Below, in pieces: positions 1 to 64,000 of a DNA stretch of 64,000 nt. Source of the DNA: Loxodes magnus (lineage: Eukaryota > Ciliophora > Karyorelictea > Loxodida > Loxodidae). Position numbers and translations under genes: made by a program. Below the pieces are notes generated by a model that was not told the DNA's origin, ran no database searches, and was given only the letters and a program-made list of their open reading frames with translations. The DNA lies in the NCBI GenBank assembly GCA_946699065.1, contig CAMPDV010001492.1, forward strand, positions 39,608 through 103,607, read 5' to 3'. Every line of letters starts with the position of its first letter. Positions within the stretch are counted from its first letter, which is position 1.

Positions 1-3000
1 TCACTGGATATAGCCACAGCATATACATTACTAGTGTGACCACTCATGGTCTTACAGGTACCTGTCTTGACGTCCCATAGTCTCACCGTATAATCTACAC
101 TTCCCGATACGATGAACTCTGAATCACTGGATATAGCCACAGCATATACATGACTAGTGTGACCACTCATGGTCTTACAGGTACCTGTCTTGACGTCCCA
201 TAGTCTCACCGTCATATCATGACTTCCCGATACGATGAACTCTGAATCACTGGATATAGCCACAGATCTTACATAATCTGTGTGACACCTCATGGTCTTA
301 CAGGTACCTGTCTTGACGTCCCATAGTCTCACCGTCTAATCATGACTTCCCGATACGATGAACTCTGAATCACTGGATATAGCCACAGATCTTACATAAT
401 CTTTTTGACACCTCATGGTCTTACAGGTACCTGTCTTGACGTCCCATAGTCTCACCGTCTAATCATGACTTCCCGATACGATGAACTCTGAATCACTGGA
501 TATAGCCTCAGCATATACATGACTAGTGTGACCACTCATGGTCTTACAGGTACCTGTCTTGACGTCCCATAGTCTCACCGTCTAATCATGACTTCCCGAT
601 ACGATGAACTCTGAATCACTGGATATAGCCAAAGATCTTACATAATCTGTGTGACCACTCATGGTCTTACAGGTACCTGTCTTGACGTCCCATAGTCTCA
701 CCGTCTAATCATGACTTCCCGATACGATGAACTCTGAATCACTGGATATAGCCACAGCATATACATGACTAGTGTGACCACTCATGGTCTTACAGGTACC
801 TGTCTTGACGTCCCATAGTCTCACCGTCATATCATGACTTCCCGATACGATGAACTCTGAATCACTGGATATAGCCACAGATCTTACATAATCTGTGTGA
901 CACCTCATGGTCTTACAGGTACCTGTCTTGACGTCCCATAGTCTCACCGTCTAATCATGACTTCCCGATACGATGAACTCTGAATCACTGGATATAGCCA
1001 CAGCATGTACATGACTAGTGTGACCACTCATGGTCTTACAGGTACCTGTCTTGACGTCCCATAGTCTCACCGTCATATCATGACTTCCCGATACGATGAA
1101 CTCTGAATCACTGGATATAGCCACAGATCTTACATAATCTTTGTGACACCTCATGGTCTTACAGGTACCTGTCTTGACGTCCCATAGTCTCACCGTATAA
1201 TCATAACTTCCCGATACGATGAACTCTGAATCACTGGATATAGCCACAGATCTTACATAATCTTTGTGACACCTCATGGTCTTACAGGTACCTGTCTTGA
1301 CGTCCCATAGTCTCACCGTATAATCATAACTTCCCGATACGATGAACTCTGAATCACTGGATATAGCCACAGCATATACATGACTAGTGTGACCACTCAT
1401 GGTCTTACAGGTACCTGTCTTGACGTCCCATAGTCTCACCGTCTAATCATGACTTCCCGATACGATGAACTCTGAATCACTGGATATAGCCACAGATCTT
1501 ACATAATCTTTTTGACACCTCATGGTCTTACAGGTACCTGTCTTGACGTCCCATAGTCTCACCGTCTAATCATGACTTCCCGATACGATGAACTCTGAAT
1601 CACTGGATATAGCCTCAGCATATACATGACTAGTGTGACCACTCATGGTCTTACAGGTACCTGTCTTGACGTCCCATAGTCTCACCGTCTAATCATGACT
1701 TCCCGATACGATGAACTCTGAATCACTGGATATAGCCACAGATCTTACATAATCTTTGTGACACCTCATGGTCTTACAGGTACCTGTCTTGACGTCCCAT
1801 AGTCTCACCGTACAATCATAACTTCCCGATACGATGAACTCTGAATCACTGGATATAGCCTCAGCATATACATGACTAGTGTGACCACTCATGGTCTTAC
1901 AGGTACCTGTCTTGACGTCCCATAGTCTCACCGTCTAATCATGACTTCCCGATACGATGAACTCTGAATCACTGGATATAGCCACAGCATATACATTACT
2001 AGTGTGACCACTCATGGTCTTACAGGTACCTGTCTTGACGTCCCATAGTCTCACCGTATAATCATAACTTCCCGATACGATGAACTCTGAATCACTGGAT
2101 ATAGCCACAGCATATACATTACTAGTGTGACCACTCATGGTCTTACAGGTACCTGTCTTGACGTCCCATAGTCTCACCGTCATATCATGACTTCCCGATA
2201 CGATGAACTCTGAATCACTGGATATAGCCACAGATCTTACATAATCTGTGTGACACCTCATGGTCTTACAGGTACCTGTCTTGACGTCCCATAGTCTCAC
2301 CGTCTAATCATGACTTCCCGATACGATGAACTCTGAATCACTGGATATAGCCACAGATCTTACATAATCTTTTTGACACCTCATGGTCTTACAGGTACCT
2401 GTCTTGACGTCCCATAGTCTCACCGTCTAATCATGACTTCCCGATACGATGAACTCTGAATCACTGGATATAGCCTCAGCATATACATGACTAGTGTGAC
2501 CACTCATGGTCTTACAGGTACCTGTCTTGACGTCCCATAGTCTCACCGTCTAATCATGACTTCCCGATACGATGAACTCTGAATCACTGGATATAGCCTC
2601 AGCATATACATGACTAGTGTGACCACTCATGGTCTTACAGGTACCTGTCTTGACGTCCCATAGTCTCACCGTCTAATCATGACTTCCCGATACGATGAAC
2701 TCTGAATCACTGGATATAGCCACAGCATATACATGACTAGTGTGACCACTCATGGTCTTACAGGTACCTGTCTTGACGTCCCATAGTCTCACCGTACAAT
2801 CATGACTTCCCGATACGATGAACTCTGAATCACTGGATATAGCCACAGATCTTACATAATCTGTGTGACCACTCATGGTCTTACAGGTACCTGTCTTGAC
2901 GTCCCATAGTCTCACCGTCTAATCATGACTTCCCGATACGATGAACTCTGAATCACTGGATATAGCCACAGCATGTACATGACTAGTGTGACCACTCATG

Positions 3001-4961: not shown

Positions 4962-5567
4962 CTCATGGTCTTACAGGTACCTGTCTTGACGTCCCATAGT
5001 CTCACCGTCTAATCATGACTTCCCGATACGATGAACTCTGAATCACTGGATATAGCCTCAGCATATACATAATTTGTGTGACCACTCATGGTCTTACAGG
5101 TACCTGTCTTGACGTCCCATAGTCTCACCGTCTAATCATGACTTCCCGATACGATGAACTCTGAATCACTGGATATAGCCACAGCATATACATAATTTGT
5201 GTGACCACTCATGGTCTTACAGGTACCTGTCTTGACGTCCCATAGTCTCACCGTCTAATCATGACTTCCCGATACGATGAACTCTGAATCACTGGATATA
5301 GCCACAGATATACATAATCTAGTGTGACCACTCATGGTCTTACAGGTACCTGTCTTGACGTCCCATAGTCTCACCGTCATATCATGACTTCCCGATACGA
5401 TGAACTCTGAATCACTGGATATAGCCACAGATCTTACATAATCTGTGTGACCACTCATGGTCTTACAGGTACCTGTCTTGACGTCCCATAGTCTCACCGT
5501 CCAATCATGACTTCCCGATACGATGAACTCTGAATCACTGGATATAGCCACAGATCTTACATAATCT
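4962..5567 (-). CDS. WD40-repeat array, frame block 2 (shifted island)
   Basis: Five units read one base out of register with both neighbours. A base is missing at about 4961-4963 (gacactcatgg where units have gaccactcatgg or gacacctcatgg), and an extra T at about 5566-5568 (ataatcttgtgtg) restores the frame. Within the island, bases 5308-5323 carry a second, locally compensated shift that turns the usual DYVRS stretch into RLCIS. Since the net shift is zero, downstream reading is unaffected if this is one protein. Confidence 0.5.
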
Positions 5568-13860: not shown

Positions 13861-13861
13861 A

Positions 13862-34500: not shown

Positions 34501-35458
34501 GTCCCATAGTATCACCGTCTAATCATGACTTCCCGAAACGATGAACTCTAAATCACTGGATATAACCACAGATCTTACATAATCTGTGTGACACCTCATG
34601 GTCTTACAGGTACCTGTCTTGACGTCCCATAGTCTCACCGTCTAATCATGACTTCCCGAAACGATGAACTCTAAATCACTGGATATAACCACAGATCTTA
34701 CATAATCTGTGTGACACCTCATGGTCTTACAGGTACCTGTCTTGACGTCCCATAGTCTCACCGTCTAATCATAACTTCCCGATACGATGAACTCTGAATC
34801 ACTGGATATAGCCACAGATGATACATAACTAGTGTGACCACTCATGGTCTTACAGGTACCTGTCTTGACGTCCCATAGTATCACCGTCATATCATAACTT
34901 CCCGATACGATGAACTCTGAATCACTGGATATAGCCACAGCATATACCTAATTTGTGTGACCACTCATGGTCTTACAGGTACCTGTCTTGACGTCCCATA
35001 GTCTCACCGTATAATCTACACTTCCCGATACGATGAACTCTGAATCACTGGATATAGCCACAGATCTTACATAATCTGTGTGACCACTCATGGTCTTACA
35101 GGTACCTGTCTTGACGTCCCATAGTCTCACCGTATTATCTCAACTTCCCGATACGATGAACTCTGAATCACTGGATATAGCCACAGCATATACCTAATTT
35201 GTGTGACCACTCATGGTCTTACAGGTACCTGTCTTGACGTCCCATAGTCTCACCGTCATATCATGACTTCCCGATACGATGAACTCTGAATCACTGGATA
35301 TAGCCACAGATCTTACATAATCTGTGTGACACCTCATGGTCTTACAGGTACCTGTCTTGACGTCCCATAGTCTCACCGTCTAATCATGACTTCCCGAAAC
35401 GATGAACTCTGAATCACTGGATATAGCCACAGATCTTACATAATCTGTGTGACCACTC
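34501..35458 (-). CDS. WD40-repeat array, frame block 8
   Basis: About eight units between the second copies of the cttgagtccc lesion (about 34500) and the gaccactctgg lesion (about 35458). It is the shorter duplicate of block 6: three units present at 31.2-32.5 kb are absent here, since the spacing of homologous points falls from 27 to 24 units. Confidence 0.5.
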
Positions 35459-38400: not shown

Positions 38401-41400
38401 TGACACCTCATGGTCTTACAGGTACCTGTCTTGACGTCCCATAGTCTCACCGTCTAATCATGACTTCCCGAAACGATGAACTCTAAATCACTGGATATAA
38501 CCACAGATCTTACATAATCTGTGTGACACCTCATGGTCTTACAGGTACCTGTCTTGACGTCCCATAGTCTCACCGTCTAATCATGACTTCCCGAAACGAT
38601 GAACTCTAAATCACTGGATATAACCACAGATCTTACATAATCTGTGTGACACCTCATGGTCTTACAGGTACCTGTCTTGACGTCCCATAGTCTCACCGTC
38701 TAATCATAACTTCCCGATACGATGAACTCTGAATCACTGGATATAGCCACAGATCTTACATAATCTTTGTGACACCTCATGGTCTTACAGGTACCTGTCT
38801 TGACGTCCCATAGTCTCACCGTCTAATCATGACTTCCCGATACGATGAACTCTAAATCACTGGATATAGCCACAGCATATACCTAATTTGTGTGACCACT
38901 CATGGTCTTACAGGTACCTGTCTTGACGTCCCATAGTCTCACCGTATAATATACACTTCCCGATACGATGAACTCTGAATCACTGGATATAGCCACAGAT
39001 CTTACATAATCTTTGTGACACCTCATGGTCTTACAGGTACCTGTCTTGACGTCCCATAGTCTCACCGTCTAATCATGACTTCCCGAAACGATGAACTCTG
39101 AATCACTGGATATAGACACAGCATATACCTAATTTGTGTGACCACTCATGGTCTTACAGGTACCTGTCTTGACGTCCCATAGTCTCACCGTCTAATCATG
39201 ACTTCCCGAAACGATGAACTCTAAATCACTGGATATAACCACAGATCTTACATAATCTGTGTGACACCTCATGGTCTTACAGGTACCTGTCTTGACGTCC
39301 CATAGTCTCACCGTCTAATCATGACTTCCCGATACGATGAACTCTGAATCACTGGATATAGCCACAGATCTTACATAATCTGTGTGACACCTCATGGTCT
39401 TACAGGTACCTGTCTTGACGTCCCATAGTCTCACCGTCTAATCATAACTTCCCGATACGATGAACTCTGAATCACTGGATATAGCCACAGATCTTACATA
39501 ATCTTTGTGACACCTCATGGTCTTACAGGTACCTGTCTTGACGTCCCATAGTCTCACCGTCTAATCATGACTTCCCGATACGATGAACTCTAAATCACTG
39601 GATATAGCCACAGCATATACCTAATTTGTGTGACCACTCATGGTCTTACAGGTACCTGTCTTGACGTCCCATAGTCTCACCGTATAATATACACTTCCCG
39701 ATACGATGAACTCTGAATCACTGGATATAGCCACAGATCTTACATAATCTGTGTGACACCTCATGGTCTTACAGGTACCTGTCTTGACGTCCCATAGTCT
39801 CACCGTATTATCATAACTTCCCGATACGATGAACTCTAAATCACTGGATATAGCCACAGCATATACCTAATTTGTGTGACCACTCATGGTCTTACAGGTA
39901 CCTGTCTTGACGTCCCATAGTCTCACCGTCTAATCATGACTTCCCGATACGATGAACTCTGAATCACTGGATATAGCCACAGATCTTACATAATCTGTGT
40001 GACACCTCATGGTCTTACAGGTACCTGTCTTGACGTCCCATAGTCTCACCGTCTAATCATAACTTCCCGATACGATGAACTCTGAATCACTGGATATAGC
40101 CACAGATCTTACATAATCTGTGTGACCACTCATGGTCTTACAGGTACCTGTCTTGACGTCCCATAGTCTCACCGTCTAATCATAACTTCCCGATACGATG
40201 AACTCTGAATCACTGGATATAGCCACAGCATATACCTAATTTGTGTGACCACTCATGGTCTTACAGGTACCTGTCTTGACGTCCCATAGTCTCACCGTCT
40301 AATCATGACTTCCCGAAACGATGAACTCTGAATCACTGGATATAGCCACAGATCTTACATAATCTGTGTGACCACTCATGGTCTTACAGGTACCTGTCTT
40401 GACGTCCCATAGTCTCACCGTATTATCATAACTTCCCGATACGATGAACTCTGAATCACTGGATATAGCCACAGCATATACCTAATTTGTGTGACCACTC
40501 ATGGTCTTACAGGTACCTGTCTTGACGTCCCATAGTCTCACCGTATTATCATGACTTCCCGATACGATGAACTCTGAATCACTGGATATAGCCACAGCAT
40601 ATACCTAATTTGTGTGACCACTCATGGTCTTACAGGTACCTGTCTTGACGTCCCATAGTCTCACCGTCTAATCATGACTTCCCGATACGATGAACTCTGA
40701 ATCACTGGATATAGCCACAGCATATACCTAATTTGTGTGACCACTCATGGTCTTACAGGTACCTGTCTTGACGTCCCATAGTCTCACCGTCTAATCATGA
40801 CTTCCCGATACGATGAACTCTGAATCACTGGATATAGCCACAGATCTTACATAATCTTTGTGACACCTCATGGTCTTACAGGTACCTGTCTTGACGTCCC
40901 ATAGTCTCACCGTCTAATCATAACTTCCCGATACGATGAACTCTGAATCACTGGATATAGCCACAGCATATACCTAATTTGTGTGACCACTCATGGTCTT
41001 ACAGGTACCTGTCTTGACGTCCCATAGTCTCACCGTCTAATCATAACTTCCCGATACGATGAACTCTGAATCACTGGATATAGCCACAGATCTTACATGA
41101 CTAGTGTGACCACTCATGGTCTTACAGGTACCTGTCTTGACGTCCCATAGTCTCACCGTCTAATCATGACTTCCCGATACGATGAACTCTGAATCACTGG
41201 ATATAGCCACAGATCTTACATAATCTTTGTGACACCTCATGGTCTTACAGGTACCTGTCTTGACGTCCCATAGTCTCACCGTCTAATCATGACTTCCCGA
41301 TACGATGAACTCTAAATCACTGGATATAGCCACAGCATATACCTAATTTGTGTGACCACTCATGGTCTTACAGGTACCTGTCTTGACGTCCCATAGTCTC

Positions 41401-44400
41401 ACCGTATAATATACACTTCCCGATACGATGAACTCTGAATCACTGGATATAGCCACAGATCTTACATAATCTGTGTGACACCTCATGGTCTTACAGGTAC
41501 CTGTCTTGACGTCCCATAGTCTCACCGTATTATCATAACTTCCCGATACGATGAACTCTGAATCACTGGATATAGCCACAGCATATACCTAATTTGTGTG
41601 ACCACTCATGGTCTTACAGGTACCTGTCTTGACGTCCCATAGTCTCACCGTATTATCATGACTTCCCGATACGATGAACTCTGAATCACTGGATATAGCC
41701 ACAGCATATACCTAATTTGTGTGACCACTCATGGTCTTACAGGTACCTGTCTTGACGTCCCATAGTCTCACCGTCTAATCATGACTTCCCGATACGATGA
41801 ACTCTGAATCACTGGATATAGCCACAGCATATACCTAATTTGTGTGACCACTCATGGTCTTACAGGTACCTGTCTTGACGTCCCATAGTCTCACCGTCTA
41901 ATCATGACTTCCCGATACGATGAACTCTGAATCACTGGATATAGCCACAGATCTTACATAATCTTTGTGACACCTCATGGTCTTACAGGTACCTGTCTTG
42001 ACGTCCCATAGTCTCACCGTATAATCATAACTTCCCGATACGATGAACTCTGAATCACTGGATATAGCCACAGATCTTACATAATCTTTGTGACACCTCA
42101 TGGTCTTACAGGTACCTGTCTTGACGTCCCATAGTCTCACCGTCTAATCATGACTTCCCGATACGATGAACTCTGAATCACTGGATATAGCCTCAGCATA
42201 TACATGACTAGTGTGACCACTCATGGTCTTACAGGTACCTGTCTTGACGTCCCATAGTCTCACCGTCTAATCATGACTTCCCGATACGATGAACTCTGAA
42301 TCACTGGATATAGCCTCAGCATATACATGACTAGTGTGACCACTCATGGTCTTACAGGTACCTGTCTTGACGTCCCATAGTCTCACCGTCTAATCATGAC
42401 TTCCCGATACGATGAACTCTGAATCACTGGATATAGCCAAAGATCTTACATAATCTGTGTGACCACTCATGGTCTTACAGTTACCTGTCTTGACGTCCCA
42501 TAGTCTCACCGTCTAATCTCCACTTCCCGATACGATGAACTCTGAATCACTGGATATAGCCACAGCATATACATGACTAGTGTGACACCTCATGGTCTTA
42601 CAGGTACCTGTCTTGACGTCCCATAGTATCACCGTCATATCAACACTTCCCGATACGATGAACTCTGAATCACTGGATATAGCCACAGCATATACCTTAT
42701 CTTTGTGACACCTCATGGTCTTACAGGTACCTGTCTTGACGTCCCATAGTCTCACCGTCTAATCTCCACTTCGAGATACGATGAACTCTGAATCACTGGA
42801 TATAGCCACAGATCTTACATAATCTGTGTGACACCTCATGGTCTTACAGGTACCTGTCTTGACGTCCCATAGTCTCACCGTCTAATCATAACTTCCCGAT
42901 ACGATGAACTCTGAATCACTGGATATAGCCACAGATCTTACATAATCTTTGTGACACCTCATGGTCTTACAGGTACCTGTCTTGACGTCCCATAGTCTCA
43001 CCGTCTAATCATGACTTCCCGATACGATGAACTCTAAATCACTGGATATAGCCACAGATCTTACATAATCTGTGTGACACCTCATGGTCTTACAGGTACC
43101 TGTCTTGACGTCCCATAGTCTCACCGTCATATCATGACTTCCCGAAACGATGAACTCTAAATCACTGGATATAACCACAGATCTTACATAACTAGTGTGA
43201 CCACTCATGGTCTTACAGGTACCTGTCTTGACGTCCCATAGTCTCACCGTATTATCTCAACTTCCCGATACGATGAACTCTGAATCACTGGATATAGCCA
43301 CAGCATATACCTAATTTGTGTGACCACTCATGGTCTTACAGGTACCTGTCTTGACGTCCCATAGTCTCACCGTATTATCATGACTTCCCGATACGATGAA
43401 CTCTGAATCACTGGATATAGCCACAGATGATACATAATCTTTGTGACACCTCATGGTCTTACAGGTACCTGTCTTGACGTCCCATAGTATCACCGTCATA
43501 TCAACACTTCCCGATACGATGAACTCTGAATCACTGGATATAACCACAGATCTTACATAATCTGTGTGACACCTCATGGTCTTACAGGTACCTGTCTTGA
43601 CGTCCCATAGTATCACCGTCATATCAACACTTCCCGATACGATGAACTCTGAATCACTGGATATAGCCACAGATCTTACATAATCTTTGTGACACCTCAT
43701 GGTCTTACAGGTACCTGTCTTGACGTCCCATAGTATCACCGTCTAATCTCCACTTCGAGATACGATGAACTCTGAATCACTGGATATAGCCACAAATCAT
43801 ACATAATCTGTGTGACACCTCATGGTCTTACAGGTACCTGTCTTGACGTCCCATAGTATCACCGTCATATCAACACTTCCCGATACGATGAACTCTGAAT
43901 CACTGGATATAGCCACAGATGATACATAATCTTTGTGACACCTCATGGTCTTACAGGTACCTGTCTTGACGTCCCATAGTATCACCGTCTAATCTCCACT
44001 TCCCGATACGATGAACTCTGAATCACTGGATATAACCACAGATCTTACATAATCTGTGTGACCACTCATGGTCTTACAGGTACCTGTCTTGACGTCCCAT
44101 AGTCTCACCGTCATATCAACACTTCCCGATACGATGAACTCTGAATCACTGGATATAGCCACAGCATATACCTAATTTGTGTGACCACTCATGGTCTTAC
44201 AGGTACCTGTCTTGACGTCCCATAGTCTCACCGTCTAATCTCCACTTCGAGATACGATGAACTCTGAATCACTGGATATAGCCACAAATCATACATAATC
44301 TGTGTGACACCTCATGGTCTTACAGGTACCTGTCTTGACGTCCCATAGTCTCACCGTATTATCTCAACTTCCCGATACGATGAACTCTGAATCACTGGAT

Positions 44401-47400
44401 ATAGCCACAGCATATACATGACTAGTGTGACCACTCATGGTCTTACAGGTACCTGTCTTGACGTCCCATAGTCTCACCGTCTAATATACACTTCCCGATA
44501 CGATGAACTCTGAATCACTGGATATAGCCACAGATCTTACATAATCTGTGTGACCACTCATGGTCTTACAGGTACCTGTCTTGACGTCCCATAGTCTCAC
44601 CGTCTAATCATGACTTCCCGATACGATGAACTCTAAATCACTGGATATAGCCACAGATCTTACATAATCTTTGTGACACCTCATGGTCTTACAGGTACCT
44701 GTCTTGACGTCCCATAGTATCACCGTCTAATCTCCACTTCGAGATACGATGAACTCTGAATCACTGGATATAGCCACAAATCATACATAATCTGTGTGAC
44801 ACCTCATGGTCTTACAGGTACCTGTCTTGACGTCCCATAGTCTCACCGTCTAATCATGACTTCCCGAAACGATGAACTCTGAATCACTGGATATAGCCAC
44901 AGATCTTACATAATCTGTGTGACACCTCATGGTCTTACAGGTACCTGTCTTGACGTCCCATAGTCTCACCGTCTAATATACACTTCCCGATACGATGAAC
45001 TCTGAATCACTGGATATAGCCACAGATCTTACATAATCTGTGTGACCACTCATGGTCTTACAGGTACCTGTCTTGACGTCCCATAGTCTCACCGTCTAAT
45101 CATGACTTCCCGATACGATGAACTCTAAATCACTGGATATAGCCACAGATCTTACATAATCTGTGTGACACCTCATGGTCTTACAGGTACCTGTCTTGAC
45201 GTCCCATAGTCTCACCGTCATATCATGACTTCCCGAAACGATGAACTCTAAATCACTGGATATAACCACAGATCTTACATAACTAGTGTGACCACTCATG
45301 GTCTTACAGGTACCTGTCTTGACGTCCCATAGTCTCACCGTATTATCTCAACTTCCCGATACGATGAACTCTGAATCACTGGATATAGCCACAGCATATA
45401 CCTAATTTGTGTGACCACTCATGGTCTTACAGGTACCTGTCTTGACGTCCCATAGTCTCACCGTATTATCATGACTTCCCGATACGATGAACTCTGAATC
45501 ACTGGATATAGCCACAGATCTTACATAATCTGTGTGACACCTCATGGTCTTACAGGTACCTGTCTTGACGTCCCATAGTCTCACCGTCATATCATGACTT
45601 CGAGATACGATGAACTCTGAATCACTGGATATAGCCACAAATCATACATAATCTGTGTGACACCTCATGGTCTTACAGGTACCTGTCTTGACGTCCCATA
45701 GTCTCACCGTCTAATCATAACTTCCCGATACGATGAACTCTGAATCACTGGATATAGCCACAGATCTTACATAATCTGTGTGACCACTCATGGTCTTACA
45801 GGTACCTGTCTTGACGTCCCATAGTCTCACCGTCATATCAACACTTCCCGATACGATGAACTCTAAATCACTGGATATAGCCACAGATCTTACATAATCT
45901 GTGTGACCACTCATGGTCTTACAGGTACCTGTCTTGACGTCCCATAGTCTCACCGTATAATCATGACTTCCCGAAACGATGAACTCTAAATCACTGGATA
46001 TAGCCACAGATCTTACATGACTAGTGTGACCACTCATGGTCTTACAGGTACCTGTCTTGACGTCCCATAGTCTCACCGTATAATCATAACTTCCCGATAC
46101 GATGAACTCTGAATCACTGGATATAGCCACAGATGATACATAACTAGTATGACCACTCATGGTCTTACAGGTACCTGTCTTGACGTCCCATAGTCTCACC
46201 GTATAATCTACACTTCCCGATACGATGAACTCTGAATCACTGGATATAGCCACAGCATATACCTAATTTGTGTGACCACTCATGGTCTTACAGGTACCTG
46301 TCTTGACGTCCCATAGTCTCACCGTCATATCATGACTTCCCGATACGATGAACTCTGAATCACTGGATATAGCCACAGATCTTACATAATCTGTGTGACC
46401 ACTCATGGTCTTACAGGTACCTGTCTTGACGTCCCATAGTCTCACCGTATTATCTCAACTTCCCGATACGATGAACTCTAAATCACTGGATATAGCCACA
46501 GATCTTACATAATCTGTGTGACACCTCATGGTCTTACAGGTACCTGTCTTGACGTCCCATAGTCTCACCGTCATATCAACACTTCCCGATACGATGAACT
46601 CTGAATCACTGGATATAGCCACAGCATATACCTAATTTGTGTGACCACTCATGGTCTTACAGGTACCTGTCTTGACGTCCCATAGTCTCACCGTCTAATC
46701 ATAACTTCCCGATACGATGAACTCTGAATCACTGGATATAGCCACAGATCTTACATAATCTGTGTGACCACTCATGGTCTTACAGGTACCTGTCTTGACG
46801 TCCCATAGTCTCACCGTCATATCAACACTTCCCGATACGATGAACTCTAAATCACTGGATATAGCCACAGATCTTACATAATCTGTGTGACCACTCATGG
46901 TCTTACAGGTACCTGTCTTGACGTCCCATAGTCTCACCGTATAATCATGACTTCCCGAAACGATGAACTCTAAATCACTGGATATAGCCACAGATCTTAC
47001 ATGACTAGTGTGACCACTCATGGTCTTACAGGTACCTGTCTTGACGTCCCATAGTCTCACCGTATAATCATAACTTCCCGATACGATGAACTCTGAATCA
47101 CTGGATATAGCCACAGATGATACATAACTAGTATGACCACTCATGGTCTTACAGGTACCTGTCTTGACGTCCCATAGTCTCACCGTATAATCTACACTTC
47201 CCGATACGATGAACTCTGAATCACTGGATATAGCCACAGCATATACCTAATTTGTGTGACCACTCATGGTCTTACAGGTACCTGTCTTGACGTCCCATAG
47301 TCTCACCGTCATATCATGACTTCCCGATACGATGAACTCTGAATCACTGGATATAGCCACAGCATATACATGACTAGTGTGACCACTCATGGTCTTACAG

Positions 47401-50400
47401 GTACCTGTCTTGACGTCCCATAGTCTCACCGTCATATCATGACTTCCCGATACGATGAACTCTGAATCACTGGATATAGCCAAAGATCTTACATAATCTG
47501 TGTGACCACTCATGGTCTTACAGGTACCTGTCTTGACGTCCCATAGTCTCACCGTCATATCAACACTTCCCGATACGATGAACTCTGAATCACTGGATAT
47601 AGCCACAGCATATACCTAATTTGTGTGACCACTCATGGTCTTACAGGTACCTGTCTTGACGTCCCATAGTCTCACCGTCTAATCATAACTTCCCGATACG
47701 ATGAACTCTGAATCACTGGATATGGCCACAGATCTTACATAATCTTTGTGACACCTCATGGTCTTACAGGTACCTGTCTTGACGTCCCATAGTCTCACCG
47801 TCTAATCATAACTTCCCGATACGATGAACTCTAAATCACTGGATATAACCACAGATCTTACATAATCTGTGTGACCACTCATGGTCTTACAGGTACCTGT
47901 CTTGACGTCCCATAGTATCACCGTCATATCAACACTTCCCGATACGATGAACTCTGAATCACTGGATATAGCCACAGCATATACATGACTAGTGTGACCA
48001 CTCATGGTCTTACAGGTACCTGTCTTGACGTCCCATAGTCTCACCGTCTAATCATGACTTCCCGATACGATGAACTCTGAATCACTGGATATAGCCACAG
48101 CATATACATGACTAGTGTGACCACTCATGGTCTTACAGGTACCTGTCTTGACGTCCCATAGTCTCACCGTCTAATCATGACTTCCCGATACGATGAACTC
48201 TAAATCACTGGATATAGCCACAGATCTTACATAATCTTTGTGACACCTCATGGTCTTACAGGTACCTGTCTTGACGTCCCATAGTATCACCGTCTAATCT
48301 CCACTTCGAGATACGATGAACTCTGAATCACTGGATATAGCCACAAATCATACATAATCTGTGTGACACCTCATGGTCTTACAGGTACCTGTCTTGACGT
48401 CCCATAGTCTCACCGTCTAATCATGACTTCCCGAAACGATGAACTCTGAATCACTGGATATAGCCACAGATCTTACATAATCTGTGTGACACCTCATGGT
48501 CTTACAGGTACCTGTCTTGACGTCCCATAGTCTCACCGTCTAATCTACACTTCCCGATACGATGAACTCTGAATCACTGGATATAGCCACAGATCTTACA
48601 TAATCTGTGTGACCACTCATGGTCTTACAGGTACCTGTCTTGACGTCCCATAGTCTCACCGTCTAATCATGACTTCCCGATACGATGAACTCTAAATCAC
48701 TGGATATAGCCACAGATCTTACATAATCTTTGTGACACCTCATGGTCTTACAGGTACCTGTCTTGACGTCCCATAGTCTCACCGTCATATCATGACTTCG
48801 AGATACGATGAACTCTGAATCACTGGATATAGCCACAAATCATACATAATCTGTGTGACACCTCATGGTCTTACAGGTACCTGTCTTGACGTCCCATAGT
48901 CTCACCGTCTAATCATAACTTCCCGATACGATGAACTCTGAATCACTGGATATAGCCACAGATCTTACATAATCTGTGTGACCACTCATGGTCTTACAGG
49001 TACCTGTCTTGACGTCCCATAGTCTCACCGTCATATCATGACTTCCCGATACGATGAACTCTGAATCACTGGATATAGCCACAGATCTTACATAATCTGT
49101 GTGACACCTCATGGTCTTACAGGTACCTGTCTTGACGTCCCATAGTCTCACCGTCATATCATGACTTCCCGAAACGATGAACTCTAAATCACTGGATATA
49201 ACCACAGCATATACATGACTAGTGTGACCACTCATGGTCTTACAGGTACCTGTCTTGACGTCCCATAGTCTCACCGTCATATCATGACTTCCCGATACGA
49301 TGAACTGTGAATCACTGGATATAGCCACAGATCTTACATAATCTGTGTGACCACTCATGGTCTTACAGGTACCTGTCTTGACGTCCCATAGTCTCACCGT
49401 ATAATCATAACTTCCCGATACGATGAACTCTGAATCACTGGATATAGCCACAGATCTTACATAATTTGTGTGACCACTCATGGTCTTACAGGTACCTGTC
49501 TTGACGTCCCATAGTCTCACCGTCTAATCATAACTTCCCGATACGATGAACTCTGAATCACTGGATATAGCCACAGCATATACCTAATTTGTGTGACCAC
49601 TCATGGTCTTACAGGTACCTGTCTTGACGTCCCATAGTCTCACCGTCTAATCATGACTTCCCGAAACGATGAACTCTGAATCACTGGATATAGCCACAGA
49701 TCTTACATAATCTGTGTGACCACTCATGGTCTTACAGGTACCTGTCTTGACGTCCCATAGTCTCACCGTCATATCATGACTTCCCGATACGATGAACTCT
49801 GAATCACTGGATATAACCACAGATCTTACATAATCTGTGTGACACCTCATGGTCTTACAGGTACCTGTCTTGACGTCCCATAGTCTCACCGTCATATCAT
49901 GACTTCCCGAAACGATGAACTCTAAATCACTGGATATAACCACAGATCTTACATAATCTGTGTGACCACTCATGGTCTTACAGGTACCTGTCTTGACGTC
50001 CCATAGTCTCACCGTCTAATCATAACTTCCCGATACGATGAACTCTGAATCACTGGATATAGCCACAGCATATACCTAATTTGTGTGACCACTCATGGTC
50101 TTACAGGTACCTGTCTTGACGTCCCATAGTCTCACCGTCTAATCATGACTTCCCGAAACGATGAACTCTGAATCACTGGATATAGCCACTGCATATACAT
50201 GACTAGTGTGACCACTCATGGTCTTACAGGTACCTGTCTTGACGTCCCATAGTCTCACCGTCTAATCATGACTTCCCGATACGATGAACTCTAAATCACT
50301 GGATATAGCCACAGATCTTACATAATCTGTGTGACCACTCATGGTCTTACAGGTACCTGTCTTGACGTCCCATAGTCTCACCGTATTATCTCAACTTCCC

Positions 50401-53400
50401 GATACGATGAACTCTAAATCACTGGATATAGCCACAGATCTTACATAATCTGTGTGACACCTCATGGTCTTACAGGTACCTGTCTTGACGTCCCATAGTC
50501 TCACCGTCTAATCATGACTTCCCGAAACGATGAACTCTGAATCACTGGATATAGCCACAGCATATACCTAATTTGTGTGACCACTCATGGTCTTACAGGT
50601 ACCTGTCTTGACGTCCCATAGTCTCACCGTCTAATCATGACTTCCCGAAACGATGAACTCTAAATCACTGGATATAACCACAGATCTTACATAATCTGTG
50701 TGACACCTCATGGTCTTACAGGTACCTGTCTTGACGTCCCATAGTCTCACCGTATTATCTCAACTTCCCGATACGATGAACTCTGAATCACTGGATATAG
50801 CCACAGCATATACATGACTAGTGTGACCACTCATGGTCTTACAGGTACCTGTCTTGACGTCCCATAGTCTCACCGTCATATCATGACTTCCCGAAACGAT
50901 GAACTCTGAATCACTGGATATAGCCAAAGATCTTACATAATTTGTGTGACCACTCATGGTCTTACAGGTACCTGTCTTGACGTCCCATAGTCTCACCGTC
51001 ATATCATGACTTCCCGATACGATGAACTCTGAATCACTGGATATAGCCACAGCATATACCTAATTTGTGTGACCACTCATGGTCTTACAGGTACCTGTCT
51101 TGACGTCCCATAGTCTCACCGTCTAATCATAACTTCCCGATACGATGAACTCTGAATCACTGGATATAGCCACAGATCTTACATAATCTTTGTGACACCT
51201 CATGGTCTTACAGGTACCTGTCTTGACGTCCCATAGTCTCACCGTCTAATCATAACTTCCCGATACGATGAACTCTAAATCACTGGATATAACCACAGAT
51301 CTTACATAATCTGTGTGACCACTCATGGTCTTACAGGTACCTGTCTTGACGTCCCATAGTATCACCGTCATATCAACACTTCCCGATACGATGAACTCTG
51401 AATCACTGGATATAGCCACAGCATATACATGACTAGTGTGACCACTCATGGTCTTACAGGTACCTGTCTTGACGTCCCATAGTCTCACCGTCTAATCATG
51501 ACTTCCCGAAACGATGAACTCTGAATCACTGGATATAGCCACAGCATATACATGACTAGTGTGACCACTCATGGTCTTACAGGTACCTGTCTTGACGTCC
51601 CATAGTCTCACCGTCTAATCATGACTTCCCGATACGATGAACTCTAAATCACTGGATATAGCCACAGATCTTACATAATCTTTGTGACACCTCATGGTCT
51701 TACAGGTACCTGTCTTGACGTCCCATAGTATCACCGTCTAATCTCCACTTCGAGATACGATGAACTCTGAATCACTGGATATAGCCACAAATCATACATA
51801 ATCTGTGTGACACCTCATGGTCTTACAGGTACCTGTCTTGACGTCCCATAGTCTCACCGTCTAATCATGACTTCCCGAAACGATGAACTCTGAATCACTG
51901 GATATAGCCACAGATCTTACATAATCTGTGTGACACCTCATGGTCTTACAGGTACCTGTCTTGACGTCCCATAGTCTCACCGTCTAATCTACACTTCCCG
52001 ATACGATGAACTCTGAATCACTGGATATAGCCACAGATCTTACATAATCTGTGTGACCACTCATGGTCTTACAGGTACCTGTCTTGACGTCCCATAGTCT
52101 CACCGTCATATCATGACTTCCCGATACGATGAACTCTGAATCACTGGATATAGCCACAGATCTTACATAATCTGTGTGACACCTCATGGTCTTACAGGTA
52201 CCTGTCTTGACGTCCCATAGTCTCACCGTCTAATCATGACTTCCCGATACGATGAACTCTGAATCACTGGATATAGCCACAGCATATACCTAATTTGTGT
52301 GACCACTCATGGTCTTACAGGTACCTGTCTTGACGTCCCATAGTCTCACCGTCTAATCATGACTTCCCGATACGATGAACTCTGAATCACTGGATATAGC
52401 CACAGCATATACCTAATTTGTGTGACCACTCATGGTCTTACAGGTACCTGTCTTGACGTCCCATAGTCTCACCGTATTATCATGACTTCCCGATACGATG
52501 AACTCTGAATCACTGGATATAGCCACAGATCTTACATAATCTGTGTGACCACTCATGGTCTTACAGGTACCTGTCTTGACGTCCCATAGTCTCACCGTCA
52601 TATCATGACTTCGAGATACGATGAACTCTGAATCACTGGATATAGCCACAAATCATACATAATCTGTGTGACACCTCATGGTCTTACAGGTACCTGTCTT
52701 GACGTCCCATAGTCTCACCGTCTAATCATGACTTCCCGATACGATGAACTCTGAATCACTGGATATAGCCACAGCATATACCTAATTTGTGTGACCACTC
52801 ATGGTCTTACAGGTACCTGTCTTGACGTCCCATAGTCTCACCGTCTAATCATGACTTCCCGATACGATGAACTCTGAATCACTGGATATAGCCACAGCAT
52901 ATACCTAATTTGTGTGACCACTCATGGTCTTACAGGTACCTGTCTTGACGTCCCATAGTCTCACCGTATTATCATGACTTCCCGATACGATGAACTCTGA
53001 ATCACTGGATATAGCCACAGATCTTACATAATCTGTGTGACCACTCATGGTCTTACAGGTACCTGTCTTGACGTCCCATAGTCTCACCGTCATATCATGA
53101 CTTCCCGATACGATGAACTCTGAATCACTGGATATAGCCACAGATCTTACATAATCTGTGTGACACCTCATGGTCTTACAGGTACCTGTCTTGACGTCCC
53201 ATAGTCTCACCGTCTAATCATGACTTCCCGATACGATGAACTCTGAATCACTGGATATAGCCACAGCATATACCTAATTTGTGTGACCACTCATGGTCTT
53301 ACAGGTACCTGTCTTGACGTCCCATAGTCTCACCGTCTAATCATGACTTCCCGATACGATGAACTCTGAATCACTGGATATAGCCACAGCATATACCTAA

Positions 53401-56400
53401 TTTGTGTGACCACTCATGGTCTTACAGGTACCTGTCTTGACGTCCCATAGTATCACCGTCATATCAACACTTCCCGATACGATGAACTCTGAATCACTGG
53501 ATATAGCCACAGCATATACATGACTAGTGTGACCACTCATGGTCTTACAGGTACCTGTCTTGACGTCCCATAGTCTCACCGTCATATCATGACTTCGAGA
53601 TACGATGAACTCTGAATCACTGGATATAGCCACAAATCATACATAATCTGTGTGACACCTCATGGTCTTACAGGTACCTGTCTTGACGTCCCATAGTCTC
53701 ACCGTCTAATCATAACTTCCCGATACGATGAACTCTGAATCACTGGATATAGCCACAGATCTTACATAATCTGTGTGACCACTCATGGTCTTACAGGTAC
53801 CTGTCTTGACGTCCCATAGTCTCACCGTCATATCATGACTTCCCGATACGATGAACTCTGAATCACTGGATATAGCCACAGATCTTACATAATCTGTGTG
53901 ACACCTCATGGTCTTACAGGTACCTGTCTTGACGTCCCATAGTCTCACCGTCTAATCATGACTTCCCGAAACGATGAACTCTAAATCACTGGATATAACC
54001 ACAGATCTTACATAATCTGTGTGACACCTCATGGTCTTACAGGTACCTGTCTTGACGTCCCATAGTCTCACCGTCATATCATGACTTCCCGATACGATGA
54101 ACTCTGAATCACTGGATATAACCACAGATCTTACATAATCTGTGTGACACCTCATGGTCTTACAGGTACCTGTCTTGACGTCCCATAGTCTCACCGTCAT
54201 ATCATGACTTCCCGATACGATGAACTGTGAATCACTGGATATAGCCACAGATCTTACATAATCTGTGTGACCACTCATGGTCTTACAGGTACCTGTCTTG
54301 ACGTCCCATAGTCTCACCGTCTAATCAACACTTCCCGATACGATGAACTCTGAATCACTGGATATAGCCACAGATCTTACATAATCTGTGTGACCACTCA
54401 TGGTCTTACAGGTACCTGTCTTGACGTCCCATAGTCTCACCGTCATATCATGACTTCCCGATACGATGAACTCTGAATCACTGGATATAGCCACAGCATA
54501 TACCTAATTTGTGTGACCACTCATGGTCTTACAGGTACCTGTCTTGACGTCCCATAGTCTCACCGTCTAATCATGACTTCCCGATACGATGAACTCTGAA
54601 TCACTGGATATAGCCACAGCATATACCTAATTTGTGTGACCACTCATGGTCTTACAGGTACCTGTCTTGACGTCCCATAGTCTCACCGTCTAATCATGAC
54701 TTCCCGATACGATGAACTCTGAATCACTGGATATAGCCACAGCATATACCTAATTTGTGTGACCACTCATGGTCTTACAGGTACCTGTCTTGACGTCCCA
54801 TAGTATCACCGTCATATCAACACTTCCCGATACGATGAACTCTGAATCACTGGATATAGCCACAGCATATACATGACTAGTGTGACCACTCATGGTCTTA
54901 CAGGTACCTGTCTTGACGTCCCATAGTCTCACCGTCATATCATGACTTCGAGATACGATGAACTCTGAATCACTGGATATAGCCACAAATCATACATAAT
55001 CTGTGTGACACCTCATGGTCTTACAGGTACCTGTCTTGACGTCCCATAGTCTCACCGTCTAATCATAACTTCCCGATACGATGAACTCTGAATCACTGGA
55101 TATAGCCACAGATCTTACATAATCTGTGTGACCACTCATGGTCTTACAGGTACCTGTCTTGACGTCCCATAGTCTCACCGTCATATCATGACTTCCCGAT
55201 ACGATGAACTCTGAATCACTGGATATAGCCACAGATCTTACATAATCTGTGTGACACCTCATGGTCTTACAGGTACCTGTCTTGACGTCCCATAGTCTCA
55301 CCGTCTAATCATGACTTCCCGAAACGATGAACTCTAAATCACTGGATATAACCACAGATCTTACATAATCTGTGTGACACCTCATGGTCTTACAGGTACC
55401 TGTCTTGACGTCCCATAGTCTCACCGTCATATCATGACTTCCCGATACGATGAACTCTGAATCACTGGATATAACCACAGATCTTACATAATCTGTGTGA
55501 CACCTCATGGTCTTACAGGTACCTGTCTTGACGTCCCATAGTCTCACCGTCATATCATGACTTCCCGATACGATGAACTGTGAATCACTGGATATAGCCA
55601 CAGATCTTACATAATCTGTGTGACCACTCATGGTCTTACAGGTACCTGTCTTGACGTCCCATAGTCTCACCGTCTAATCAACACTTCCCGATACGATGAA
55701 CTCTGAATCACTGGATATAGCCACAGATCTTACATAATCTGTGTGACCACTCATGGTCTTACAGGTACCTGTCTTGACGTCCCATAGTCTCACCGTCATA
55801 TCATGACTTCCCGATACGATGAACTCTGAATCACTGGATATAGCCACAGCATATACCTAATTTGTGTGACCACTCATGGTCTTACAGGTACCTGTCTTGA
55901 CGTCCCATAGTCTCACCGTCTAATCATCACTTCCCGAAACGATGAACTCTGAATCACTGGATATAGCCACAGATCTTACATAATCTGTGTGACCACTCAT
56001 GGTCTTACAGGTACCTGTCTTGACGTCCCATAGTATCACCGTCTAATCTACACTTCCCGATACGATGAACTCTGAATCACTGGATATAGACACAGCATAT
56101 ACCTAATTTGTGTGACCACTCATGGTCTTACAGGTACCTGTCTTGACGTCCCATAGTCTCACCGTCATATCATGACTTCCCGAAACGATGAACTCTGAAT
56201 CACTGGATATAGCCACAGATCTTACATAATCTGTGTGACACCTCATGGTCTTACAGGTACCTGTCTTGACGTCCCATAGTCTCACCGTCTAATCATGACT
56301 TCCCGATACGATGAACTCTGAATCACTGGATATAGCCACAGCATATACCTAATTTGTGTGACCACTCATGGTCTTACAGGTACCTGTCTTGACGTCCCAT

Positions 56401-56807
56401 AGTCTCACCGTCTAATCATGACTTCCCGATACGATGAACTCTGAATCACTGGATATAGCCACAGCATATACCTAATTTGTGTGACCACTCATGGTCTTAC
56501 AGGTACCTGTCTTGACGTCCCATAGTCTCACCGTATAATCTACACTTCCCGATACGATGAACTCTGAATCACTGGATATAGCCACAGATCTTACATAATC
56601 TTTGTGACACCTCATGGTCTTACAGGTACCTGTCTTGACGTCCCATGGTCTCACCGTCTAATCATGACTTCCCGATACGATGAACTCTGAATCACTGGAT
56701 ATAGCCACAGCATATACCTAATTTGTGTGACCACTCATGGTCTTACAGGTACCTGTCTTGACGTCCCATAGTCTCACCGTCTAATCATAACTTCCCGATA
56801 CGATGAA
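35459..56807 (-). CDS. WD40-repeat array, longest frame block (~7,100 codons)
   Basis: About 174 consecutive units with no detected indel, so about 7,100 codons are open if TAG and TGA are sense. With standard stops the longest pieces are 48909-49520 (203 codons) and the two identical 180-codon stretches 45711-46253 and 46695-47237. Most TGA codons of the window lie here, at position 24 (AGT TGA GAT) and position 8 (GTA TGA), plus one at position 6 near 35809. TAG at position 26 is dense: 13 of 16 units tallied between 36.9 and 38.9 kb. Holding one frame over 21 kb while neighbouring regions have a shift every 1-3 kb is notable. It may reflect selection, or simply recent amplification from intact units. 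Confidence 0.6.
37221..39188 (-). repeat. Two adjacent copies of an 8-unit block (984 bp)
   Basis: Paired VVIS/TCG-GTT units near 37471 and 37594 recur near 38454 and 38577, a 984-bp offset (8 x 123). The flanking TAG and SVD units follow the same order. Small differences (GTG/TTT spelling at the loop, D-x-TV near 37960/38944) show the copies have since diverged. Confidence 0.75.
39400..42140 (-). repeat. 14-unit duplication (1,722 bp offset)
   Basis: The stretch 39621-39857, with the rare V25-type SVYYTV (atatac) next to YDNTV, recurs at 41343-41579, 14 x 123 bp away, differing by S16L. Several flanking units share the same order. Confidence 0.7.
43005..45540 (-). repeat. 17-unit duplication (2,091 bp offset)
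   Basis: 43005-43247 and 45096-45338 encode the same two repeats at a spacing of 17 x 123 bp. Both are followed by the same AGT TGA GAT unit (near 43258 and 45350) and a TAG-at-6 unit. Confidence 0.75.
45711..47237 (-). repeat. Identical 8-unit duplication (984 bp offset)
   Basis: The two 180-codon stretches 45711-46253 and 46695-47237 encode identical protein and sit 8 x 123 bp apart. Similarity extends to about 46.36 and 47.34 kb, after which the position 5-9 variants differ. Confidence 0.85.
47580..52180 (-). repeat. 28-unit duplication (3,444 bp offset)
   Basis: 47802-48044 and 51246-51488 encode identical protein, 28 x 123 bp apart. The neighbouring SRS-SGD-TAG unit (cttcgagatacg near 48306 and 51750) and its TGA-FVA partner keep the same spacing. 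Confidence 0.8.
53218..55913 (-). repeat. Two adjacent copies of an 11-unit block (1,353 bp)
   Basis: 53397-53633, 53706-53948 and 53952-54317 recur at 54750-54986, 55059-55301 and 55305-55670, each exactly 11 x 123 bp later. The copies abut near 54.57 kb. Divergence begins near 55.92 kb (ctaatcatcac). Confidence 0.9.
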
Positions 56808-56830
56808 TCATGACTTCCCGATACGATGAA
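56808..56830 (-). repeat. 23-bp internal duplication
   Basis: The stretch tcatgacttcccgatacgat plus gaa is present twice in succession, the first copy in the variant form tcataac. It adds 23 bp and shifts the frame, ending the conventional open stretch 56774-56977 in an out-of-frame tail. It fits strand slippage or a misaligned exchange at gatacgatgaa. Confidence 0.9.
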
Positions 56831-58035
56831 CTCTGAATCACTGGATATAGCCACAGATCTTACATAATCTTTGTGACACCTCATGGTCTTACAGGTACCT
56901 GTCTTGACGTCCCATAGTCTCACCGTATAATCATAACTTCCCGATACGATGAACTCTGAATCACTGGATATAGCCACAGCATATACCTAATCTGTGTGAC
57001 CACTCATGGTCTTACAGGTACCTGTCTTGACGTCCCATAGTCTCACCGTCATATCATGACTTCCCGATACGATGAACTCTGAATCACTGGATATAGCCAC
57101 AGATCTTACATAATCTGTGTGACCACTCATGGTCTTACAGGTACCTGTCTTGACGTCCCATAGTCTCACCGTCATATCATGACTTCCCGATACGATGAAC
57201 TCTGAATCACTGGATATAGCCACAGATCTTACATAATCTGTGTGACACCTCATGGTCTTACAGGTACCTGTCTTGACGTCCCATAGTCTCACCGTCTAAT
57301 CATGACTTCCCGATACGATGAACTCTAAATCACTGGATATAGCCACAGATCTTACATAATCTTTGTGACCACTCATGGTCTTACAGGTACCTGTCTTGAC
57401 GTCCCATAGTCTCACCGTCTAATCATAACTTCCCGATACGATGAACTCTAAATCACTGGATATAGCCACAGATCTTACATAATCTGTGTGACACCTCATG
57501 GTCTTACAGGTACCTGTCTTGACGTCCCATAGTCTCACCGTCTAATCATGACTTCCCGATACGATGAACTCTAAATCACTGGATATAACCACAGATCTTA
57601 CATAACTAGTGTGACCACTCATGGTCTTACAGGTACCTGTCTTGACGTCCCATAGTCTCACCGTATTATCTCAACTTCCCGATACGATGAACTCTGAATC
57701 ACTGGATATAGCCACAGATCTTACATAATCTTTGTGACACCTCATGGTCTTACAGGTACCTGTCTTGACGTCCCATAGTCTCACCGTATAATCATGACTT
57801 CCCGATACGATGAACTCTGAATCACTGGATATAGACACAGCATATACCTAATTTGTGTGACCACTCATGGTCTTACAGGTACCTGTCTTGACGTCCCATA
57901 GTCTCACCGTCTAATCATAACTTCCCGATACAATGAACTCTGAATCACTGGATATAGCCACAGATCTTACATAATCTGTGTGACCACTCATGGTCTTACA
58001 GGTACCTGTCTTGACGTCCCATAGTCTCACCGTCT
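56808..58035 (-). CDS. WD40-repeat array, frame block 10
   Basis: About 10 units out of register with block 9 because of a 23-bp internal duplication at 56808-56830. At its other edge an extra T at about 58035 (ccgtctatatc) shifts the frame again. It looks like a crossover between a TAG-type and an ATG-type unit at position 26. Confidence 0.5.
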
Positions 58036-58602
58036 ATATCATGACTTCCCGATACGATGAACTCTGAATCACTGGATATAGCCACAGCATATACATGACT
58101 AGTGTGACCACTCATGGTCTTACAGGTACCTGTCTTGACGTCCCATAGTCTCACCGTCATATCATGACTTCCCGATACGATGAACTCTGAATCACTGGAT
58201 ATAGCCACAGATCTTACATAATCTTTGTGACACCTCATGGTCTTACAGGTACCTGTCTTGACGTCCCATAGTCTCACCGTATAATCATGACTTCCCGATA
58301 CGATGAACTCTGAATCACTGGATATAGCCACAGCATATACCTAATTTGTGTGACCACTCATGGTCTTACAGGTACCTGTCTTGACGTCCCATAGTCTCAC
58401 CGTATAATCATAACTTCCCGATACGATGAACTCTGAATCACTGGATATAGCCACAGATCTTACATAATCTGTGTGACCACTCATGGTCTTACAGGTACCT
58501 GTCTTGACGTCCCATAGTCTCACCGTATAATCATAACTTCCCGATACGATGAACTCTGAATCACTGGATATAGCCACAGCATATACCTAATTTGTGTGAC
58601 CA
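58036..58602 (-). CDS. WD40-repeat array, frame block 11
   Basis: About five units between +1 lesions at about 58035 and 58603. The second (gaccacctcatgg) looks like a hybrid of the two normal forms gaccactcatgg and gacacctcatgg, as a misaligned exchange inside this motif would give. Confidence 0.5.
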
Positions 58603-62640: not shown

Positions 62641-64000
62641 CATATACCTAATTTGTGTGACCACTCATGGTCTTACAGGTACCTGTCTTGACGTCCCATA
62701 GTCTCACCGTCATATCATGACTTCCCGATACGATGAACTCTGAATCACTGGATATAGCCACAGCATATACCTAATTTGTGTGACCACTCATGGTCTTACA
62801 GGTACCTGTCTTGACGTCCCATAGTCTCACCGTCTAATCATGACTTCCCGATACGATGAACTCTGAATCACTGGATATAGACACAGCATATACATGACTA
62901 GTGTGACACCTCATGGTCTTACAGGTACCTGTCTTGACGTCCCATAGTCTCACCGTCATATCATGACTTCCCGATACGATGAACTCTGAATCACTGGATA
63001 TAGCCACAGCATATACCTAATTTGTGTGACCACTCATGGTCTTACAGGTACCTGTCTTGACGTCCCATAGTCTCACCGTACAATCATGACTTCCCGATAC
63101 GATGAACTCTAAATCACTGGATATAGCCACAGATCTTACATAATCTGTGTGACCACTCATGGTCTTACAGGTACCTGTCTTGACGTCCCATAGTCTCACC
63201 GTCATATCATAACTTCCCGATACGATGAACTCTGAATCACTGGATATAGCCACAGCATATACATGACTAGTGTGACCACTCATGGTCTTACAGGTACCTG
63301 TCTTGACGTCCCATAGTCTCACCGTCATATCATGACTTCCCGATACGATGAACTCTGAATCACTGGATATAGCCACAGATCTTACATAATCTGTGTGACA
63401 CCTCATGGTCTTACAGGTACCTGTCTTGACGTCCCATAGTCTCACCGTCTAATCATGACTTCCCGATACGATGAACTCTGAATCACTGGATATAGCCTCA
63501 GCATATACATGACTAGTGTGACCACTCATGGTCTTACAGGTACCTGTCTTGACGTCCCATAGTCTCACCGTCATATCATGACTTCCCGATACGATGAACT
63601 CTGAATCACTGGATATAGCCTCAGCATATACATGACTAGTGTGACCACTCATGGTCTTACAGGTACCTGTCTTGACGTCCCATAGTCTCACCGTCTAATC
63701 ATGACTTCCCGATACGATGAACTCTGAATCACTGGATATAGCCACAGATCTTACATAATCTTTGTGACACCTCATGGTCTTACAGGTACCTGTCTTGACG
63801 TCCCATAGTCTCACCGTATAATCTACACTTCCCGATACGATGAACTCTGAATCACTGGATATAGCCACAGATCTTACATAATCTTTGTGACACCTCATGG
63901 TCTTACAGGTACCTGTCTTGACGTCCCATAGTCTCACCGTCTAATCATGACTTCCCGATACGATGAACTCTGAATCACTGGATATAGCCTCAGCATATAC
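60505..64000 (-). CDS. WD40-repeat array, frame block 13 (upstream end, partial)
   Basis: About 28 units, the part translated first within this window, open at the high-coordinate edge. Neither the true start nor any N-terminal domain is included. 60803-61354 is a 183-codon stretch with no stop. The V33F/N3 module of 59.4-59.9 kb recurs here 18 units later. From about 63.5 kb the V10E variant typical of the opposite end of the window returns, so the array composition is not simply polarised. Confidence 0.6.

Follow-up and report, generated by a model that had tools for sequence, protein, structure and literature searches.

A tandem array of WD40 blades in Loxodes magnus: probably satellite DNA amplified from a pentapeptide-WD40 gene family

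How can a long stretch of DNA read as one WD40 blade after another and at the same time be full of in-frame TAG codons? The question is raised by a 64,000-base stretch of the genome of the ciliate Loxodes magnus (hereafter, the window, which forms the end of a contig of 103,607 bases), the minus strand of which is, over its whole length, a head-to-tail array of a 123-bp (41-codon) WD40 unit. As argued below, the window is probably part of a major L. magnus satellite that carries one WD40 blade per unit and was amplified from a family of pentapeptide-WD40 genes, and the apparent stops in it are sense codons. What is new is the array of WD40 blades rather than the reassignment of TAG, which is already known for L. 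magnus; there is nothing new in the code itself.

Parsing the window by script gave 518 unit anchors and 517 intervals, 504 of them exactly 123 bp long; the 13 others measure 122 bp (five), 124 bp (four), 245 bp (two), 146 bp, and 117 bp, and 12 of them break the frame. The array runs uninterrupted on the minus strand from window base 1 to base 64000, which is the end of the contig, and continues to the left as far as contig base 1, filling the entire contig (817 units of 123 bp, among which there are 229 distinct sequences, and 22 odd-length units). The unit is recognized as a WD40 blade by Pfam: three units of common types, joined into one protein, match the WD40 family (PF00400) with an E value of 1.8e-33.

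We number the codons of the unit from the CTA of its LWD motif, so that positions 26 and 6 of an initial annotation of this DNA become codons 38 and 18. In the full-length units of the window, TAG stands at codon 38 in 234/504, at codon 18 in 127/504, and at no other codon. The initial annotation had noted both sites, and its observations are borne out: codon 38 is TAG in 9 of the leftmost 17 full-length units and in 13 of the 16 in the stretch that it singled out (36900..38950, minus strand, like all features given below by window coordinates), and the first unit with TAG at codon 18 starts at 3,771, close to the 3.8 kb that it gave. Its further statement that TAG occurs nowhere else holds for the full-length units of the window and fails outside it: the remainder of the contig has a single TAG at codon 17, and other contigs have three at codon 29. 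Nor are the in-frame stops confined to TAG at two codons, since TGA had been overlooked: the window contains 34 in-frame TGA codons, at codons 20 (18 times), 36 (13 times), and 18, 38, and 40 (once each), that is, 31/34 at the two sister codons 20 and 36. Altogether, 394/395 in-frame TAG and TGA codons of the window sit in codons 18, 20, 36, and 38, there is no TAA, and 181/504 units have no stop-type codon at all. The same four codons hold 582/584 in-frame TAG and TGA codons over the contig's 817 units. When five other contigs were sampled (584 full-length units), 430/440 stop-type codons were again in these four places, the ten exceptions being TAA at codons 34 (five) and 28 (one), TAG at codon 29 (three), and TGA at codon 34 (one).

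Are such codons read as sense in this organism? In conserved genes of this genome, in-frame TAA and TAG are sense codons. The initial annotation had pointed to such genes as the place to look for in-frame TAG, and it is there: all 29 matches to the chaperonin family (PF00118), 22 of them near full length, have both TAG and TAA in frame, and TGA lies inside 7 of the 29; among the best 150 of 258 tubulin candidates (PF00091), every match listed has in-frame TAA and many also have TAG. In-frame TAA and TAG are likewise found throughout the pentapeptide-WD40 genes described below, and TGA stands opposite TGG at two columns of homologous blades in three of these genes (L018, L022, and L024, aligned by eye). 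For L. magnus, translation table 27 is given, with UGA as the sole stop that can also be Trp (PMC11441545); between the karyorelict code as described there and the code as read here (TAA and TAG sense, TGA probably Trp or stop), we found no difference. The genome-wide reassignment of TAG suggested in the initial annotation is, therefore, right as far as it goes, but TAG is not alone: TAA too is a sense codon, and TGA would serve both for Trp and as the stop. These genes also decide against the possibility that the array is dead DNA of an organism with the standard code, its TAG codons having arisen by ordinary nonsense mutation. The frame breaks and the apparently neutral evolution of the blade framework (see below) would suit such an array, but conserved chaperonin and tubulin genes full of in-frame TAA and TAG, and pentapeptide-WD40 genes in the same condition, lead us to reject it genome-wide and to leave it almost no probability.

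Gln or Glu had been offered as the meaning of TAG. Gln is the residue in the published code, and the reading of TAG and TAA as Gln rests mainly on that code, with weak support from facing codons in our alignments. Where TAA or TAG faces some other codon in the N-terminal parts of the genes, the partner is CAA or CAG in 7/19 cases for L018/L022, 2/17 for L018/L024, and 3/25 for L022/L024; CAA/CAG is the commonest partner only for the first and closest pair, and the two more distant pairs say little. CAG is also found at codon 18 itself, in five units of the array on contig C4. Setting TAG to each of the 20 residues in turn in a 142-residue kinase fragment and scoring it against the PF07714 profile gave no resolution, with Q (114.5 bits), E (114.6 bits), and K (113.8 bits) nearly level and S at 113.1 bits.

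Why, then, should the stop-type codons keep to four places in the unit? Codons 18, 20, 36, and 38 flank the conserved residues V19 and D37, an arrangement reminiscent of the blades of fungal HET receptors, the conserved residues of which we take to be V and D as well. In the HET-D/HET-E blades of Podospora anserina, codons 7, 9, 25, and 27 are reported to be under positive selection around the conserved codons 8 and 26, which belong to the WD consensus, and a model puts the selected codons on the top side of the propeller, within its d-a loop and b-c turn (PMC1805685, PMC2873952); a further study names HET-D/E positions 10, 11, 12, 14, 30, 32, and 39 for a high ratio of non-synonymous to synonymous substitution rates (dN/dS) (PMC12222747). 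The conserved pair is 18 codons apart both in the fungal blade, as described there, and here, and an alignment anchored on the pair places HET positions 10, 11, 12, 14, 30, and 32 at our codons 16, 17, 18, 20, 36, and 38. When the 41 codons are ranked by codon entropy, the six at the head of the list (38, 18, 36, 16, 17, and 20, in that order) all match fast HET positions, and the top six are the same when only the 229 distinct units are counted; the probability that all six fall within the seven named positions is P = 1.6e-6, a value to be read with the proviso that neighboring codons vary as linked cassettes and are not fully independent. A ranking by residue entropy still has HET positions in all of its first five places, and codon 16 drops to ninth place because much of its variation is synonymous.

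The fungal blades with high internal conservation (HET-D, HET-E, and HNWD), as far as they are described in the same three papers (PMC1805685, PMC2873952, PMC12222747), resemble those of L. magnus in being near-identical, in evolving in concert, and in having the same fast positions, placed around a conserved pair with a spacing of 18 residues. They differ in that the fungal receptors carry a NACHT domain, whereas the L. magnus gene L022 carries a protein kinase and pentapeptide repeats (a scan of two pieces of this one copy found the kinase and the pentapeptide repeats only, and no NACHT), and in that a fungal genome has tens of such blades (strain S has 69), as against about 375,000 here, most of them probably in arrays. 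By analogy with HET-D/HET-E, the variability of the loop positions in the L. magnus genes would most likely stem from diversifying selection on the propeller of a recognition receptor. With TAA and TAG probably read as Gln and TGA as Trp or stop, the TAG and TGA codons of the array are ordinary sense codons at variable loop positions. Since the same codons vary in fungal self/non-self receptors, one surface of this fold may be the site of diversification in lineages that are far apart.

The predicted structure is consistent with such a surface. Seven consecutive full-length blades of the window (57140..58000), modeled with 16 other seven-unit runs of the window as the alignment, are predicted to form seven blades of four strands each (28 in all), with a mean predicted local distance difference test score (pLDDT) of 92.5 and a predicted template modeling score (pTM) of 0.88, and the best match of the predicted fold in the PDB is a WD40 domain (template modeling score 0.93). 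In the first blade of the model, codons 16–18 lie between strands spanning residues 2–4 and 11–16, in the d-a loop, with codon 20 at the start of the latter strand, and codons 36–38 lie between strands spanning residues 22–27 and 31–36, in the b-c turn; the predicted locations are those modeled for the selected pairs of the fungal HET proteins. Near-identical or designed blades are also known from solved WD40 structures (such as PDB: 2ymu, 7big, and 7bie), which share the blade sequence and the propeller fold but are single proteins. The fold prediction says nothing about translation.

Where does the unit come from? Isolated copies of it at contigs C2 and C3 (L018, L022, and L024) lie in genes that consist, as judged by eye, of a pentapeptide part followed by seven WD40 blades, the inner blades having the sequence of the array and the outer ones not. 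One of these genes, L022 (C2:2732889-2735912, minus strand), matches the pentapeptide family PF00805 with 44 bits and the kinase family PF07714 with 114 bits, and its kinase, pentapeptide, and WD40 parts follow one another in this order in a single table-27 frame (by eye). Two further copies have six blades besides the first (L153) and three blades (L152). When the N-terminal part of L022 was used as a protein query against the genome, at least 150 matches were obtained, 62–74% identical apart from the query's own locus; each of the matches listed covers at least 192/194 residues and carries in-frame TAA. The dN/dS of the N-terminal parts of the three genes is 0.23, 0.38, and 0.36 (194–195 codons), which shows purifying selection on this part. 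For a receptor-like protein, this domain order of L022 (kinase, pentapeptide, WD40) is unusual.

The array behaves differently, as is best seen by asking whether it could itself be coding, that is, consist of giant WD40 genes with hundreds of blades translated under table 27. The longest stretch of the window without a frame-breaking unit (35493..56771; 21,279 bases, 173 units) is open under this table, over the contig there are runs of 21 and 31 kb without a frame break (the latter mostly outside the window), and the blade is canonical, a set of seven being predicted to form a propeller. An open frame carries little weight, however, where all three stops can be read as sense, and 20 of the contig's 22 odd-length units break the frame. 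Moreover, the breaks travel with their blocks: the 122-bp units at 35371..35492 and 32421..32542 are identical, so the frame break was duplicated along with its block, and the 245-bp double unit at 34388..34632, which has a 1-base deletion, differs by 2 bases from its copy at 31069..31313. Outside nine variable codons, where 288 single-base changes are possible and 11 of them would give TAA, TAG, or TGA, we found 34 framework variants, 26 non-synonymous and 8 synonymous, which is 1.11 times the ratio expected. Given this ratio, the predominance of frame-breaking lengths, and the copying of breaks with their blocks, nothing indicates that selection keeps the array protein-coding; it also weighs against giant genes that those seen with all their blades (L018, L022, and L024, by eye) have seven, and that the two other copies have no more than stated above. 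We regard a coding array as improbable, and the idea that the array itself could prove that it is translated fails, its frame being broken and its framework evolving as if neutral. The initial annotation had further argued from the absence of TAG at framework codons one change away from it; as none of the 34 variants is of the stop type and the chance of finding none is 0.24, we reject this absence as a sign of reading constraint.

How gene and array blades are related is indicated by their divergence. Between different genes, the synonymous difference is 8% for the inner blades (36 pairs among ten blades of four genes, the blades having been chosen by their motif TGTCKTM) and about 63% for the N-terminal parts (three genes), and we conclude that the near-identical blades are under concerted evolution between loci. 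We envisage that unequal exchange among the near-identical inner blades of the pentapeptide-WD40 family, with a protein kinase in at least one member, was already homogenizing the genes and then ran away into satellite arrays; the array would have inherited the diversity of the genes' variable codons and would be shuffling it while evolving free of reading-frame constraint. The direction from gene to satellite, like unequal exchange itself, is what we infer from these comparisons. The reverse traffic may also be considered, with tens of megabases of neutral WD40 arrays kept as a genome-scale donor archive that feeds combinations of variable codons by gene conversion into a subtelomere-like family of kinase/pentapeptide/WD40 recognition receptors, in the manner of silent cassettes in antigenic variation. 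The inner blades of genes and arrays do look like one homogenized population (5/13 gene blades are within 4 of 102 bases of a sampled array unit), the low inner-blade divergence just given would be accounted for, arrays are found at some contig ends upstream of genes and mostly in their orientation (see below), and a silent archive would evolve neutrally, as the array does. Yet only 6/26 variable cassettes of the genes occur verbatim in the sampled arrays (4/13 for codons 17–21 and 2/13 for codons 36–38), 3/13 gene blades have their closest counterpart in another gene and not among the sampled array units, with 2 more tied, and shared descent together with unequal exchange explains the likeness between genes and array. 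We therefore consider an archive rather unlikely, although a good deal less so than a coding array; were it true, L. magnus would have a protist counterpart of the fungal HET receptors that draws new specificities from satellite DNA.

If the array is instead a satellite amplified from these genes, how much of the genome does it occupy? The core 24-mer of the array occurs exactly 374,609 times in the assembly (705,730,643 bases, 7,843 contigs), which at 123 bp each corresponds to ~46 Mb, or ~6.5%; since the core is exact at only 500 places for the 518 anchors of the window, this count is slightly low. For comparison, the macronuclear assembly of L. magnus is put at 706 Mbp, with 231 Mbp of tandem repeats (PMC11441545). 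Very high copy number in tandem and freedom from coding constraint, the marks of a satellite, are both seen here (374,609 cores, a dN/dS of about 1.1, and frame-breaking lengths), and the array shares with satellite DNA in general the long head-to-tail arrangement, block duplication, homogenization, and absence of frame constraint; it differs in having as its unit the repeat of a protein domain, which can still be recognized and which gene copies still share. The genome authors attribute the size difference between the micronuclear and macronuclear assemblies likely to misassembled low-complexity repeats (PMC11441545), and one may ask whether a short real array has been inflated in this way. 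Inflation could alter the copy number but not the existence of the satellite, and with 229 distinct sequences in the 817 units of one contig and the array present in eight contigs and at 14/40 contig ends upstream of genes, an artifact seems very unlikely. Phage and viral collections gave no match to the array, and an exact search of a wider collection of genome contigs gave none to its unit; a protein search of the latter collection found 13 prokaryote loci, at most 53% identical. In the literature, we found no description of this satellite or of the pentapeptide-WD40 family in a search from which the supplements of the Loxodes paper were excluded and outside which subscription journals mostly fell.

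Several points weigh against the reading of the window as satellite DNA derived from a receptor-like gene family. The copy number depends on an assembly with misassembled repeats flagged by its authors; the recognition function of the pentapeptide-WD40 genes is a suggestion drawn, by analogy, from codon position alone, and HET position 39, fast in the fungi (PMC12222747), has no variable counterpart among the 41 codons here; the synonymous divergence of the N-terminal parts is near saturation, at 1.3–1.5; the nine codons of the framework test were set aside after the data had been seen, and 34 variants are few; picking blades by the motif TGTCKTM favors blades that are alike; and an array evolving neutrally is to be expected of a donor archive no less than of a by-product. 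With these points taken into account, we still hold the derivation of the satellite from the gene family to be the probable explanation. A protein-recognition domain would then have turned into a satellite that makes up about 6.5% of a eukaryotic assembly and still shares its sequence with at least 150 gene-like copies, providing a case for studying the birth of a satellite from a live gene family, as well as a candidate recognition system in a ciliate.

The surroundings of the genes were sampled by taking, from each strand, the 20 gene matches of highest rank, one per contig and excluding the query locus, and examining 150 bases at each contig end; this covers 40 of the at least 150 matches, and the 40 contigs are not all independent (C378 and C3807 have identical matches, and C378 and C701 share their downstream end). 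The gene is nearer to its downstream contig end in 34/40 cases (median 24 kb vs 139 kb). The WD40 array is found at 14/40 upstream contig ends, in the gene's orientation in 12/14, and at 0/40 downstream ends; the possibility that the WD40 domains of the genes run on into arrays on their 3' side is thereby refuted. What is found downstream is an AT-rich, purine-biased tandem satellite (about AAAAGTGAAGAAGTAAAGTAAGAAAAGAAG...), present at 33/40 downstream ends, 7/40 upstream ends, and 1/40 shuffled ends; as its motif was derived from the same downstream ends, only the contrast with the upstream ends counts. Examples are the start of C417 and the ends of C25 and C9 (L073, L118, and L128). This layout looks subtelomeric. 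Loxodes telomeres have eluded detection according to the genome authors (PMC11441545), and the tendency of the genes to point at the AT-rich satellite at contig ends is a lead towards Loxodes chromosome ends. Another AT-rich tandem repeat (L071, C368:323000-330659), which reads as a hydrophobic repeated peptide (FFYFTFFYFLSKTITHL...), is located at the far end of contig C368, the opposite end of which holds the WD40 array.

The remaining odd-length units of the window are the 146-bp unit at 56772..56917, which breaks the frame by a 23-bp duplication; a frame-breaking 124-bp unit at 58025..58148, with further units of this length at 58518-58641, 60487-60610, and 5492-5615; further 122-bp units at 28733-28854, 13851-13972, and 4878-4999; and a 117-bp unit at 6231-6347 that keeps the frame. 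The 23-bp direct duplication (window 56783-56830) lies within one unit and is possibly a scar of slippage or exchange.

Some observations were made in passing at other loci. On C16, three pentapeptide-WD40 gene copies, two of them with equal scores, lie ~12.87 kb apart near the contig end (at 2853, 15731, and 28602), a tandem duplication of a long unit. On C4, kinase-like and WD40-like readings split over several frames, decayed or interrupted as judged by eye, are found at L069 and L070 (C4:2219000-2225999 and 2265000-2274654), just ahead of an array that starts near 2225722, and there is array again in the final 9.7 kb of C4. Short isolated pieces of array lie within AT-rich DNA at L020 (356 bases) and L023 (167 bases); near L020, inspection by eye alone suggests a reverse-transcriptase-like reading (YADD). 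Finally, the tubulin genes look strongly amplified: there are 258 candidates at first look, including a run on C441 spaced at exactly 3,342 bases and many on C64.

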